This document shows, one piece after another, positions 4,958 through 31,016 of a stretch of 44,870 bases of DNA. The translations under genes were made by a program, and so were the position numbers. The notes under the pieces were generated by a model. The model saw nothing but the letters and a program-made list of their open reading frames with translations, searched no databases and was not told the DNA's origin. The stretch is from Candidatus Poseidoniaceae archaeon (lineage in GTDB: Archaea; Thermoplasmatota; Poseidoniia; Poseidoniales; Poseidoniaceae). Location of the stretch: positions 1 to 44,870 of the forward strand of contig JAPKCS010000015.1 of the NCBI GenBank assembly GCA_028822845.1. The letters run 5' to 3'. The first letter of the stretch is position 1. Each line of letters begins with the position of its first letter.

Positions 4958-5043
4958 GGATTGGCCTTATGACCGCCCTGCAATATACTTCCGATGGCGC
5001 GTTGTAGAGCAACCTTCATGCCCTACCTGCACAACCCAAAGCC

Positions 5044-5265
5044 ATGAGCGACGAACTTGTGGTACGGGAAGGCGAACGAATTCCTCGCCGACCACTTCCT
5101 GAATTTTCGGAAGTCGGATCCTTTGCCGAGGCTATGAAGCGAGACGGTTTCTTCGGAACGGCTGTTGCCGACAAAAACCAGTATGGCCCTCTGGCCATGA
5201 TGCTCCTGTTGTTGATCGTCGCTGGCGTCACGGGCCTTTTGATTAAACTTGCAGCATCTGCTTGA
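5044..5265 (+). CDS. Small membrane protein, C-terminal transmembrane helix
   Basis: A 73-residue product with a charged N-terminal half (SDELVVREGERIPRRPLPEF) and one hydrophobic segment at about 49-70 (PLAMMLLLLIVAGVTGLLIKL). It is a likely tail-anchored or single-pass membrane protein with a cytoplasmic N-terminus. The longer minus-strand frame over the same bases (5023-5397) has low-complexity, basic composition unlike its neighbours, so the plus frame is preferred. It is followed after 87 bases by another membrane protein gene on the same strand. No family is recognised. Confidence 0.6.
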   Translation: MSDELVVREGERIPRRPLPEFSEVGSFAEAMKRDGFFGTAVADKNQYGPLAMMLLLLIVAGVTGLLIKLAASA

Positions 5266-5352
5266 ACGGTCATTCCAGCACTGTGCTGAAAACCATCTGA
5301 TCGATTTGGTCAAACGGTAAACATCAAACCATACCCCCCATTTCGAAAGGAC

Positions 5353-5799
5353 ATGGATGAAAAATCGGTCAATGTAGAAAGCCGTACATCCTCCCAAGAT
5401 AAACGGTGGACCATCATGGCTGCTTTGCTAGGAACAAACACGGCTTTCATGCTTTTTCAAGGGATTGAGCAGGAACGAACCTACACCGCTGTGCGGGAAG
5501 TGGCCCTTACGATCATTGCTGTTGCTCTCCCGTTCCAGGGTATTTATTTCCTGATTTACACCTTTGTCCTCGAACATGAAGGGAAATTGACTGAATCACA
5601 CATGCAGCGCCTACGAAGGGCATCTGCTGTGTGTCAACTTGTTGCTTATGGCTCCCTCATCGGTGTCGCTTTGATGTGGTATAACATCTCAACCTATGTT
5701 GGAATTTTCTTTGTTCTCTCGACGGGTGTTGCCGTCATCCTCATCCGCACTGCAATTCGACCATTGGACCGATTAGACGGCGAGGAAGCCGCAAATTGA
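5353..5799 (+). CDS. Four-helix integral membrane protein of unknown function
   Basis: A 148-residue protein. After about 18 polar residues, four hydrophobic segments can be seen: TIMAALLGTNTAFMLFQGI, EVALTIIAVALPFQGIYFLI, QLVAYGSLIGVALMWYNI and IFFVLSTGVAVILIRTAI. The tail is short and charged. The ATG follows GAAAGGAC, an acceptable ribosome-binding site. It sits between the small membrane protein at 5044 and purB on the same strand. No catalytic motif is visible and no family is recognised. Confidence 0.65.
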   Translation: MDEKSVNVESRTSSQDKRWTIMAALLGTNTAFMLFQGIEQERTYTAVREVALTIIAVALPFQGIYFLIYTFVLEHEGKLTESHMQRLRRASAVCQLVAYGSLIGVALMWYNISTYVGIFFVLSTGVAVILIRTAIRPLDRLDGEEAAN

Positions 5800-5871
5800 C
5801 CGATAAGATTGCCCTTATCGCCAAGATAGTCCAACGGCAATGTTGATGAATCGAGGCGTGAGCCTAGAGTC

Positions 5872-7221
5872 ATGTCCTTCTGCCCGCTCGACTACCGTTA
5901 CGGATGCCAAGAATTCAAGCACATCTGGTCTGAAGTTGGACGCCACGAGCGTCAACTTGAGGTTGAACGTGCACTTATCTGGGCTCATATGCAACTTGGT
6001 CGTGTCTCGAAAGCCGATTACGATATTGTCGCTTCGATCGCCAACCCAACCTCCGTTACCAAGGAACGGGTTTCTGAAATTGAAGCCGAAACCCGCCATG
6101 ACATCATGGCCCTGACCAAGGCAATGGCTGAAGCTGCTGGGGATGCTGGCTGGTGCATACACCTTGGTGCAACTTCAAACGACATTGTGGACACGGCAGT
6201 CGCCATACAACTTCGAGACAGCATGGTCTTGCTTCGAGAACAATTGTGCCTCCTCATCGGCGTGTGTGCCAATGTTGCAGAACGAGAACGGGACACAGTC
6301 ATGCTCGGTCGGACCCACGGTCAAGCCGCCGTGCCAATCACGTTTGGACTCAAGGCTGCAGTTTGGCTGGATGAACTCCGACGCCAACTGATCCGCCTCG
6401 ATGAAGCATCGCCACGCATCGCTGTCGGCAAATTCCTCGGAGCGGTCGGTACAGGCGCAGCACAAGGTCAAAATGCCAGAGAACTTCAACGGCTCATTCT
6501 GACCCACCTCGGTCTTGGTGTACCTTTGGCAACCACTCAAGTTGTTGGACGAGACCGATACATCGAATACGTTTCCTGGTTGTCAAACATTGCGACCACG
6601 TGCGAGAAGATTCTTCAAGAAGTCCGAAACTTGCAACGGTCAGAAATTCAAGAAGCTGGTGAAGGATTCGATATCGAAAAGCAAGTTGGCTCCTCAACGA
6701 TGGCTCACAAAAAGAATCCAATTAAATCGGAAAACGCCTCTGGACTGGCACGAATTGTTCGATCGATGATCATCCCCACCTACGAGAACGCTCTGCTCTG
6801 GCACGAGCGAGACTTAGCCAATTCCAGTTGTGAGCGGTTCACCCTCTCCCACGGCTCCGCCTTGTGCGAAGACGTGATTGCAAAGACACGCGATGTCCTG
6901 ACCAACATGTGGGTCGACGCTGAACGATGCCTTGAGAACATCAAGTCGCAACGAGGATTGGTGATGGCAGAAAAGGTCATGATCGATCTGGTCGACCATG
7001 GAATTCCAAGGGATGAAGCACATGAGATCCTACGTGAAGCCTCCTTCACCGCAGTTGCGAACAAAGAGGAATTGATCGATGTATGCAGCCGTACTCCTGC
7101 TATTGTTGCAGCGTTCAATGCTGAAGAATTGGAAGCAATGTTTGACCCTGCAAACCACATTGGCGTGTCCGGTGAACTTGTCGACGAATGCGTTGCATTG
7201 GCACGAGCTGCCATCAAGTGA
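5872..7221 (+). CDS. purB: Adenylosuccinate lyase
   Basis: PurB cleaves SAICAR to AICAR in purine synthesis and adenylosuccinate to AMP, releasing fumarate. It is a cytosolic homotetramer. The 449-residue length is typical. The fumarase/aspartase signature GSSTMAHKKNPIKSEN starts at Gly273 and holds the flexible catalytic Ser loop. The TSNDIVDTA region at about 102 and LGRTHGQAAVP at about 145 carry the other conserved active-site residues. The N-terminus CPLDYRYG fits the archaeal and Bacillus type. The stop is two bases from the convergent stop of dph6, so the two transcripts must meet here. No other pur genes are in the window. Confidence 0.95.
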   Translation: MSFCPLDYRYGCQEFKHIWSEVGRHERQLEVERALIWAHMQLGRVSKADYDIVASIANPTSVTKERVSEIEAETRHDIMALTKAMAEAAGDAGWCIHLGATSNDIVDTAVAIQLRDSMVLLREQLCLLIGVCANVAERERDTVMLGRTHGQAAVPITFGLKAAVWLDELRRQLIRLDEASPRIAVGKFLGAVGTGAAQGQNARELQRLILTHLGLGVPLATTQVVGRDRYIEYVSWLSNIATTCEKILQEVRNLQRSEIQEAGEGFDIEKQVGSSTMAHKKNPIKSENASGLARIVRSMIIPTYENALLWHERDLANSSCERFTLSHGSALCEDVIAKTRDVLTNMWVDAERCLENIKSQRGLVMAEKVMIDLVDHGIPRDEAHEILREASFTAVANKEELIDVCSRTPAIVAAFNAEELEAMFDPANHIGVSGELVDECVALARAAIK

Positions 7222-27850: not shown

Positions 27851-28867
27851 ATGGCAGGCTTCGGAAACATACGCAAAGGTCGTCGCGATGCGGTTGAAAA
27901 CCTCAACTACACAGAAGGTGGAGACTGTCCACGATGTGGTGGCGAAGCTCAGTCATCAACAATGGCTGGTTACCTGACATGCGTAGCATGCAACCACGAA
28001 TGGTCCGATCCAAATCACGTTGACGCAACCGAAAGGGCTCCACCTCCAACCTACCGTCAAGATGCAGAAATGATTGAGGAATTCAAGAAAGAAGTTGCTT
28101 CAGGGAGCCTCGCAGGTGTCCTTGGCGTCGATGCGGACTTGACTGAAGAGCAAGAGGCATCCTTAGACCGACTTGAAGATAAATGGATGACAGGTATGCA
28201 AGGGCACTTCAATACGGCAACTGAAGATAGAAAGCCATTGATGATCAGTTTTGATGACGAAGACAACATCGTATCGACCGAGGTTGCAGCACTCACAATC
28301 GTGGCGAATGGTTTCGATGGAGGAGAAGAAATCCGATTGGAATACCCAGGACTCGGGACGGAGTTCTACCAATTCAACGTCGCTGACTCGTCAGGCTGGA
28401 AAAAAGGGCGGACTGCAGAAGACACCGCACGCTCAATTCGCAACATCATCAACAACAATTCAAAATTGGTCTATGCCAATTTGAACGGTGTCCGCATTTC
28501 TTTTGAATTGAGGGATACGAAGCTCAAGGCTGCATCGCTCGTTTTGTTTGTCGATGACCCTGGGGGTACCGACATCGTCGCAGAAAAGAACGGTGTTGTG
28601 CTGGATGCCCGGGACATCAGAGATTTCGATGACTATCGAAATGTTGTCGAACTGGTCCTTGAAGATGGAATTATTTCACCAAGTGAAGACCAGTTGCTCT
28701 GGTCCATGCGCCAACAACTCGGCATCGATGATACCTACCACATCCAAATGGTATTGGAGATCTGTGGTGAAAAAACCCTCAAAGAATGCACAGGATGTTC
28801 AAACATGGCTCAACTCTACCCAGAGTACGCTGCATGGTACTGTCAAACTTGTGAAGATTGGTGTTGA
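27851..28867 (+). CDS. Unknown protein with zinc ribbons at both ends
   Basis: The product has 338 residues from ATG 27851; a TTG at 27821 would extend it by ten. Near the N-terminus lies a TFIIB-like ribbon (CPRCGG, about 14 residues, CVACNH). The middle has an acidic helical stretch (about 65-130), then a beta-rich domain (about 130-260, with FDGGEEIRLEYPGLGTEF). A helical region follows that resembles a TerB or EF-hand-like pair (VLEDGIISPSEDQLLWSMRQ). The C-terminus is a second Cys cluster (CTGC, CQTC, WC). There is no membrane segment. It lies 158 bases before the MamK-like actin gene on the same strand. Function is unknown. Confidence 0.65.
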   Translation: MAGFGNIRKGRRDAVENLNYTEGGDCPRCGGEAQSSTMAGYLTCVACNHEWSDPNHVDATERAPPPTYRQDAEMIEEFKKEVASGSLAGVLGVDADLTEEQEASLDRLEDKWMTGMQGHFNTATEDRKPLMISFDDEDNIVSTEVAALTIVANGFDGGEEIRLEYPGLGTEFYQFNVADSSGWKKGRTAEDTARSIRNIINNNSKLVYANLNGVRISFELRDTKLKAASLVLFVDDPGGTDIVAEKNGVVLDARDIRDFDDYRNVVELVLEDGIISPSEDQLLWSMRQQLGIDDTYHIQMVLEICGEKTLKECTGCSNMAQLYPEYAAWYCQTCEDWC

Positions 28868-29025
28868 ACCAAGGATTGGCATCCTACCGGAGACCTATGC
28901 CCCATTCTATAGGAATTTAATCAAGCATTTATTTCACCCACACAATGCCTTTTCGACAAGATGGTTGGTCAACAGCGAGGTATTCTTCTTAAGGTAGGTC
29001 GCGATGGGCAGGGCAGGTGAGTGCT

Positions 29026-30051
29026 ATGGCAGAAGACGTATTGTATATTGGAATTGATTTGGGAACCTTCCGCTCTGTGATGGTTTCTTCCGACAGCCAC
29101 GAAGAAGAAGAGTTGACCGTCATCGGTACCCCAAAGGATCCGATTGCACGCAATTTCCTCAAGCGAGATGTTCTTTTCGGTGAAGAAGCACTGAAGAACC
29201 GTCTTGCTCTCAACCTTTTCCGCCCGCTCGAACTTGGTGTCATCAAGGACACTCAAGAAGACCGAGAATTCATCGCTCACTTCATCACCCACCTCATTGG
29301 ATTGTCCGACCCTGAAGAATACGACCGTGTGGTCGCCGTTATCGGTGCACCAGCCGAAGCATCCTATGTGGATAAGACCGCAATCTTTGATGCTGCTGCT
29401 GGCTCAGTCAACGCTGCAATGATCATTTCAGAACCTTTCGCTGTTGCTTACGCACTCGACATGATTGAACACACCCTCGTCATCGACATCGGTGCAGGTA
29501 CAGCTGACCTTTGCCGTGTCTACGGTACCATCCCTGGACCAGAAGACCAAATGCACACTGGCCACGCTGGAGATTTCATTGACCGACAACTCATCAAGGA
29601 AATCCAATCCAAGTACAACGGTGCTCAAATCACCAAAGACATGGCTCGCCGATGGAAGGAACAGTATTCCTTCGTTGGAACCCACACCCCTGAATCCCCC
29701 GTTATGGTCGACTTCTCGATTGAAGGAAAAGCCATGAACCTCGACATCACAGATTGCCTCCAATCCGCTTGTGAAGCAATTGTTGAACCAATCGTTGAGA
29801 ACGTCAAGTTGTTGATTGCTGGATCCAACCCCGAATACCACAATGAATTCCGACGAAACATGGTTCTTGCAGGCGGCGGTTCCGGTATCAAGGGCCTCGG
29901 TGCAATGATTGAGCGACGTTTGTCCGACATGGGCGATGTCAACGTTCACGTGGTCGATGACCCAGTGCGCCTCGGTGCAATGGGCGGCCTACGGTTGGCT
30001 ATGGAAGTTCCAGAAGAAATGTGGTCTTCCCTCACCTTGGCAACCCGCTGA
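29026..30051 (+). CDS. Actin-like ATPase, MamK/MreB type
   Basis: A 341-residue actin-superfamily protein, the normal MreB/MamK size. Phosphate-1 loop IGIDLGT is at residues 8-14. The catalytic Glu is in ISEPFAVAYA at about 135-141. Phosphate-2 is VIDIGAGTADLC at about 152-163, and the adenosine motif VLAGGGSGIKGLG is near 285. The stretch RVYGTIPGPEDQMHTGHAGDFID closely resembles my recollection of MamK, the filament that aligns magnetosomes. No other magnetosome genes are here, so a different cargo or a shape or division role is likely. GCAGGTGA before ATG 29026 favours that start over GTG 29017. A small coiled-coil gene follows. Confidence 0.87.
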   Translation: MAEDVLYIGIDLGTFRSVMVSSDSHEEEELTVIGTPKDPIARNFLKRDVLFGEEALKNRLALNLFRPLELGVIKDTQEDREFIAHFITHLIGLSDPEEYDRVVAVIGAPAEASYVDKTAIFDAAAGSVNAAMIISEPFAVAYALDMIEHTLVIDIGAGTADLCRVYGTIPGPEDQMHTGHAGDFIDRQLIKEIQSKYNGAQITKDMARRWKEQYSFVGTHTPESPVMVDFSIEGKAMNLDITDCLQSACEAIVEPIVENVKLLIAGSNPEYHNEFRRNMVLAGGGSGIKGLGAMIERRLSDMGDVNVHVVDDPVRLGAMGGLRLAMEVPEEMWSSLTLATR

Positions 30052-30111
30052 GCTTTACTTTGAAATCCTAGCACTCATTGAATCAACGATAATTCAAAAC
30101 TGGTGATTTAT

Positions 30112-30384
30112 ATGGATGGCAAAAAGACCCTTCGAAAGTTGAAGAAACTCACCACTCGTCTGACCGATCGCATGGAAGAAATGCGAGACCTCATGGATGA
30201 TATGGAAATTGAGTTTGAGATGATGCAGAAGCAAATCTCGATCTTGGAAAAGAATGGACCCATCGTTACGAAGACACCCGCAGAAGAATCTGCTGTGCTC
30301 GAGGATGTGGACATTGACGAAGAAGAAGATGAAGACATTGATTTGGAGAACACAACTGCTGTGTTCATCAAGCCAAAGTTCTGA
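30112..30384 (+). CDS. Small coiled-coil protein next to the actin-like gene
   Basis: A 90-residue protein. A basic start (GKKTLRKLKKLTTRLTDR) leads into a heptad-patterned helix (MEEMRDLMDDMEIEFEMM, EKQI-type continuation) to about residue 47. A Pro/Glu-rich linker, a strongly acidic block (about 65-78) and a short hydrophobic-basic end (TAVFIKPKF) follow. The start is set by GGTGAT at 30102-30107, four bases before the ATG. The 60-base gap to the actin-like gene suggests one transcript. It could be a filament adaptor or regulator, by analogy with small partners of bacterial actins; this is inference from position only. Confidence 0.7.
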   Translation: MDGKKTLRKLKKLTTRLTDRMEEMRDLMDDMEIEFEMMQKQISILEKNGPIVTKTPAEESAVLEDVDIDEEEDEDIDLENTTAVFIKPKF

Positions 30385-30407
30385 ACCTCACCTAGGGCTC
30401 AACTTGC

Positions 30408-31016
30408 CTATTCTTGCTCATACTTTGCCGATAGGTCATTGCTGACCAATTGGTTTTGACAGTGTGGGCATCGATCACTCGAATGCAACTGCGCAGGACG
30501 GATGGCAAGGACTGCCAGGCATGTTGGGCAAGCTGCGTACATTTCACCTGCTTCAAGCGGTACATCAGGAATGATTTCGATGGTGTTGTGGTAGGCGTTC
30601 CGGTAGCCGGAATGAAAGTGTGTTGTCACTCGACGAACTGAGCCAAAGCAGGCCCAAATCATCAAGAAGGCCCACAAGTAAGAGCCAATATAGAGCATCG
30701 TAAGTGCTTCAAACAAAAAGAACAGGGCTGCAAGTGCAATGATGCACGGAGCAATCCAATAGGCAATCGAAGACTTTCTCCGGTAAGCAAGCCAATTCAT
30801 TGTGAGAAGTGCAGCGCTCAAACCCAAGACCGCTTCGAGAAGCGAAGGATATACAAATTGAGTAATGCTGTACAAGACAAAGAGAACAATCAAACTGTCA
30901 ATGAACAGAATGAACGTCGTGCCTCGATGGATCGGGTCATAGGCACTCCCGGTGGTCCCGAAAGATTGAGGACGCATTCCTGCGATGACGAGGTCATCAG
31001 CCCTACCGCTTGCCAT
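30408..31016 (-). CDS. Multi-pass membrane protein with C-terminal zinc ribbon
   Basis: A 202-residue protein. Four or five hydrophobic segments are seen between about 35 and 130 (TFILFIDSLIVLFVLYSITQF, LLEAVLGLSAALLTMNWLAY, WIAPCIIALAALFFLFEAL, SYLWAFLMIWACF). A cytoplasmic tail then carries two CxxC pairs (CPTC, CPHC) about 18 residues apart, a zinc ribbon. No known family is recognised. It is convergent with the coiled-coil gene (23-base gap) and divergent from coaBC (55-base gap). Confidence 0.7.
   Translation of the reverse strand: MASGRADDLVIAGMRPQSFGTTGSAYDPIHRGTTFILFIDSLIVLFVLYSITQFVYPSLLEAVLGLSAALLTMNWLAYRRKSSIAYWIAPCIIALAALFFLFEALTMLYIGSYLWAFLMIWACFGSVRRVTTHFHSGYRNAYHNTIEIIPDVPLEAGEMYAACPTCLAVLAIRPAQLHSSDRCPHCQNQLVSNDLSAKYEQE

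Follow-up and report, generated by a model that had tools for sequence, protein, structure and literature searches.

A pair of MamK-superfamily actins with separate conserved partner genes in Marine Group II archaea

Crenactin is an archaeal actin whose conserved neighbor genes, the arcadins, regulate its filament. In magnetotactic bacteria, MamK is the actin by which magnetosomes are aligned. In MamK systems, adaptor or coiled-coil proteins (MamJ, McaAB, Mad20/23/25/26) connect or organize magnetosomes with actin filaments (PMC10653835, PMC13170167, PMC12748827). Outside magnetotactic bacteria, BeeR from Verrucomicrobiota (PDB 8r2n, PMC11929497) is a described relative of MamK, and for the haloarchaeal actin salactin, MamK was reported as the closest known subfamily (PMC10746226) in a paper that does not mention Marine Group II. 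Marine Group II (MGII, Poseidoniales) archaea are among the commonest archaea of the surface ocean (PMC6461757). Two papers on MGII genomics (PMC6336850, PMC6461757) mention neither MamK nor MreB nor a cytoskeleton, and no description of MGII actins was found in the literature searched, which was mostly without subscription papers.

Here, an actin gene (actA) is described from a 44,870-nucleotide stretch of DNA of a Candidatus Poseidoniaceae archaeon (the window, Table 1). A first-pass annotation of this DNA had proposed an undescribed archaeal filament system. Given the literature result, this proposal is plausible, with the correction that the system is larger than was described and comprises two actins with two different partners. 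By general description, it resembles the crenactin system in that an archaeal actin is accompanied by conserved neighbor genes.

Table 1 Features of the actA locus, with positions in the window unless another contig or locus is named
Feature	Position	Strand	Description
ZnR	27851..28867	+	338 aa; N-terminal zinc ribbon, middle domain, TerB-like helical segment (residues ~256-305), C-terminal CxxC pairs
Promoter-like box GAGGTATTCTTCTTAAGG	28977..28994	+	~32-49 nt before actA ATG; form in relatives GAGGNATNCTTCATAAGG
actA	29026..30051	+	MamK-superfamily actin ATPase, 341 aa, start ATG 29026; basis: ORF, profile, fold, invariant catalytic residues
Small basic/coiled-coil/acidic protein	30112..30384	+	90 aa; conserved C-terminal peptide DLENTTxVFVKPKF
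Conserved membrane/zinc-ribbon protein	30408..31016	-	convergent to actA; marks end of actin locus
actB	G000:C27:26274-27278		second actin of the window's genome
Short ccB loci	L172, L174, L175, L176, L178 (G019, G046, G095, G067, G003)		mostly syntenic

Family assignment of actA

The actA reading frame is intact, and its start codon is conserved across relatives. In the only single-contig relative, the gene is found in two frames (G002:C1:1175435-1176441), which reflects either a sequencing error or a real frameshift. When actA is compared with NCBIfam profiles, the highest score is obtained with MamK (363 bits, E = 1e-108), followed by BeeR (212 bits), MreB (85 bits) and salactin (62 bits). 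The curated MamK cut-off (NF040964) of 400 bits is missed by actA and also by the best MGII member (376 bits). Likewise, actA misses the BeeR cut-off of 530 bits and differs from salactin, for which the cut-off is 400 bits; the salactin score in Pfam (53 bits) is above a low threshold of 27 only. Volactin (27 of 35 bits) and HSP70 (11.6 of 20.6 bits, for a protein of 341 residues) are under their cut-offs as well. The PDB entries closest in sequence to actA are those of MamK (5ljw, 5jyg and 5ljv; E ~1e-75), ahead of BeeR (8r2n) and then MreB. An AlphaFold model of actA, prepared from an alignment with 39 relatives (pLDDT 93), gives the same order in a Foldseek search: the MamK filament 5ljv is the top match (TM of 0.91/0.95; rmsd of 1.7), and BeeR and MreB follow. 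Crenactin is found neither among the PDB sequence matches at E ≤ 1 nor in the top 50 fold matches.

The alignment of actA with MamK is full-length, with 39% identity, and the catalytic residues are the same. In agreement with the first-pass annotation, all of the actin nucleotide motifs are kept: the phosphate-1, phosphate-2, connect and adenosine motifs are present in actA together with the equivalents of E143 and D161, and the equivalents of MamK D17, G19, T20, E143, D161, G163, G165, T166, D168, K218 and G288-S291 are invariant in 59/59 actA and 20/20 actB proteins, actB being the second MGII actin. In contrast to MamK, an aromatic residue (F/Y) follows the phosphate-1 motif of actA, where most others have Ser. 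The 30-50 residue N-terminal extension of BeeR is missing from actA, which has ~8 residues before the first motif. According to the database entry 5ljw, AMB-1 MamK A278D is non-polymerizing. The equivalent residue is Asp in most actA proteins, which counts against filament formation, although Glu is found there in several magnetosome MamKs; this position was rejected as a filament test because the site is too variable to decide.

Two trees, a maximum-likelihood tree of 88 rows and a smaller tree of 47 rows, were built without crenactin, arcadin or salactin sequences. In the 88-row tree, the MGII actins form their own group (81/98), which lies outside a 30-row clade of magnetosome MamKs (97/96) and also outside an 18-row bacterial group that includes Nitrospirae, Rokubacteria, Desulfobulbaceae and Planctomycetota. 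BeeR and MreB are placed far out; the branch that sets MreB apart is very long and has full support. In the 47-row tree, actA is sister to actB (100/98), and the MGII actins have as their sister row (88/94) an archaeal actin from the euryarchaeal MAG KR11 (L166). Topologies in which only one of the two paralogs joins the magnetosome clade are rejected by an AU test, with p = 0.005 for actA and p = 0.003 for actB. The profile scores, the fold search and the tree, which has no crenactin sequence, thus support the earlier suggestion that actA is probably MamK-like, as opposed to an MreB, crenactin or Hsp70 protein, and the phylogeny places it in an MGII group within the MamK superfamily and not with MreB.

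Two paralogs and their neighboring genes

A second actin gene, actB, was overlooked by the first-pass annotation. Its product is 47% identical to actA. At least one actin copy is present in 118 of the 194 genomes of the order, and most of these 118 have both actA and actB. Based on the archaellum pattern in PMC6461757, the two MGII families considered here, f1 and f2, probably correspond to Ca. Poseidoniaceae and Ca. Thalassarchaeaceae, respectively. In f1, the carriers are the listed genomes from all ten genera, with the exception of one genome (G064, genus g8) that has actB only. In f2, the carriers are confined to genera g14, g16, g18 and g21. The f2 genera with actin mostly have genomes of 1.6-2.1 Mb, and most f2 genera of 1.1-1.5 Mb have none. 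Because both families carry both copies, a duplication before the f1/f2 split, with loss in the smaller-genome f2 genera, would be the simplest reading. When a phylum-wide sample was searched with the MamK profile, the only other strong match came from Thermoplasmata SG225.bin14 (L078/L140, 435 bits), where the gene lies beside a Kae1-like gene; the six genomes of a sister group in the class contain no MamK-profile actin.

The zinc-ribbon gene ZnR is found directly upstream of actA at every actA locus examined across the order, and in G064 ZnR and actA are both missing. The suggestion that this gene is part of the system is therefore borne out to the extent that ZnR and actA are a conserved gene pair throughout the order. 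The middle domain of ZnR is conserved, and its N-terminal ribbon is lost in genus g9. The TerB match of the helical segment is just under the cut-off. A ZnR profile searched against the PDB yields weak zinc-ribbon matches to L37Ae only, a structure prediction made without an alignment is uninformative (pLDDT 36), and no ZnR relatives were found in viral contigs. The box that precedes actA is conserved at actA loci across the genus, and similarly spaced related forms (TTGATAAACC, TTGATATACC) are observed in other genera. It may well serve as a promoter. Since actA has a promoter-like box of its own, the two genes of the ZnR-actA pair could be transcribed separately.

At 40/40 listed actB loci, the gene directly after actB encodes a coiled-coil protein (ccB, ~420 codons), which is best conserved at residues 241-280 (87-91% identity between families). 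Only genera with actin have ccB in this long form. Most of the actin-less genera have kept a 155-180 residue homolog of its N-terminal part, without actB or the C-terminal half, and where checked, this short gene lies near the same flanking genes (an L18a-type ribosomal gene and a GGGP synthase-like gene). The short and long forms provide a natural experiment: because actin-less genera keep the N-terminal part alone, the comparison suggests that the actin-linked part is the C-terminal half. In the window's genome, the actB-ccB pair is located ~5 kb from a proteorhodopsin-like gene (G000:C27; L070 9218-15900), and the same is seen in L058 and L066.

The 90-residue protein, whose gene follows actA in the window after a gap of 60 bp, had been proposed as a dedicated adaptor. 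This is a genuine gene under purifying selection. Seven relatives are 57-61% identical, and both the core and the C-terminal peptide are invariant among them; dN/dS is ~0.09 and 0.12 for the two closest pairs, synonymous changes far exceeding non-synonymous ones. Most genomes of genera g1, g2, g3, g5 and g7 have one copy of the gene; it has no match in g4, g6, g8, g9 and g10, genera that for the most part carry actA. Adjacency to actA is limited to nine genomes, all from the clade of the window. Elsewhere in f1, its neighbors, named by eye, are dnaJ, cysS, isocitrate dehydrogenase/aquaporin-like and further unrelated genes. Along 27851-30384, the gene order proposed for the system is thus kept across the order for the ZnR-actA pair and is local for the small gene, which is absent from beside actA in relatives. 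The role of dedicated actA partner was rejected because the gene is unlinked in most relatives. A homolog of the convergent membrane/zinc-ribbon gene is found directly after actA in the f2 genera and in several f1 genomes, and actA followed by this gene is the probable ancestral order. By recent rearrangement, the small gene came to lie beside actA; it occupies a variable slot there as a passenger and does not belong to the core of the system. It could alternatively encode a regulator of actA, comparable to the arcadin-2 of crenactin, which works in trans from unlinked sites and became linked later, in the window's clade. This would agree with a real, conserved gene, its invariant peptide and its position in the nine genomes. 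However, the unrelated neighbors in all other sampled contexts, the actA-bearing genera without a match and the varied genes that fill the slot after actA in relatives make such a regulator improbable. This slot (30052-30407 in the window, and the same slot in L009-L033) is a gene-turnover hot spot in f1, with differing genes in many close relatives.

Proposed function and competing explanations

The genes actA and actB probably encode ATP-dependent, filament-forming actins of MGII that represent their own branch of the MamK superfamily, each as the core of a two-gene module. The first module would consist of actA and the upstream ZnR, and the second, elsewhere in the genome, of actB and ccB. 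As in MamK, ATP binding would lead to polymerization and hydrolysis to turnover, and the partner protein would tie the filament to a cargo or an anchor. In ccB, the C-terminal half (residues ~165-360), found only where actB is, would be the likely filament-binding part, whereas the N-terminal half, retained alone in actin-less genera, may bind something else. The adaptors of the MamK systems count in favor of an adaptor role for ZnR and ccB. Positioning or scaffolding by ATP-driven filaments, each with its own adaptor, appears to be the most likely function. A more far-reaching version, which we offer tentatively and consider somewhat unlikely, is a two-filament cytoskeleton in which ancient paralogs form separate tracks, with ZnR for actA and ccB for actB, and organize an as yet unseen internal structure; it would have been lost in the streamlined f2 genera, which keep the ccB stump for another job. 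If true, abundant surface-ocean archaea would have an unseen internal structure organized by actins. The conserved actin pair, with its distinct conserved partners, provides defined proteins for in vitro tests and for imaging.

Instead of positioning cargo, the actins could form a cell-shape or cell-size cytoskeleton of the larger-genome MGII cells, comparable to volactin or MreB. Their presence in all listed f1 genomes and mainly in the larger-genome f2 genera fits loss by streamlining, and no cargo genes are linked to the actA or actB locus. Yet no MreC/D/RodZ-like partner was seen, and a soluble coiled-coil partner is closer to the MamK or crenactin systems, so a shape cytoskeleton is regarded as unlikely. 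A connection with the archaellum, in which the filaments would organize the pole or the archaellum base, was tested because the same genomes have the other detectable copy of ZnR segment 256-305 in their archaellum cluster, and because the KR11 actin is followed, 1 bp on, by a coiled-coil gene with a FlaD/E domain (PF04659, E = 2.5e-16). Because a PF04659 search was empty, archaellum presence was scored by FlaH and archaellin. By this measure, FlaH and archaellin are missing from genera g16 and g21, which carry both actins, and an archaellum without actin is found in g13 and g20. An archaellum-dependent function was rejected since actin presence does not track the archaellum, and organization of the pole or archaellum base is quite improbable. 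In the MGII archaellum cluster, the TerB-like segment is part of a ~150-residue protein (L180 6611-7093, L182 16153-16605), and a very long (~1,600 residues), secreted-looking protein is also encoded. In KR11 (L166 5953-7584), roadblock-like and PAN-like genes, judged by eye, are also present upstream.

Plasmid parMR systems have an actin with a neighboring small protein, and the layout of the present locus resembles this arrangement. A DNA-segregation actin of the ParM kind is nevertheless very improbable, as the MGII genes are chromosomal, syntenic with housekeeping genes across the order and universal in a family, and both profile and fold indicate MamK. Least probable of all, to the point of being hardly credible, is a cryptic magnetosome chain aligned by the MamK-like actin, even though MamK is the protein to which actA is most similar. 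The MGII actins have partner genes other than those of MamK. As the first-pass annotation had observed, no magnetosome genes are found among the neighbors of the actin locus, and magnetochrome is absent from the 21 MGII genomes searched, with two magnetotactic control genomes positive. Because it scores below the curated MamK cut-off, is found without magnetochrome and lies outside the magnetosome clade by the AU test given above, actA is not, on sequence grounds, a magnetosome MamK.

Similar proteins are also present in many non-magnetosomal bacteria (Nitrospirae, Rokubacteria, Desulfobulbaceae, Planctomycetota and others; L131-L169). These belong to the same superfamily, are mostly ~40-47% identical to actA and lack magnetochrome in the one such genome checked. 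In contrast to the MGII actins, they form separate branches and have other neighbors, and ZnR or ccB homologs occur in none of L131-L169. Outside magnetosomes, MamK-type actins thus have a wide distribution that takes in many bacterial phyla, at least three lineages of archaea and a single viral contig. In three loci from non-magnetotactic Nitrospirae (L131, L144 and L160), the gene upstream of the MamK-like actin gene runs into its start; the product, of ~350 residues, carries a hydrophobic N-terminal stretch and may be a partner. The actin of the viral contig (L170, IMGVR_UViG_3300009370_000045, 4989-6032) is 37% identical to AMB-1 MamK; its gene immediately precedes one for a terminase, and a P22-type coat protein is encoded nearby.
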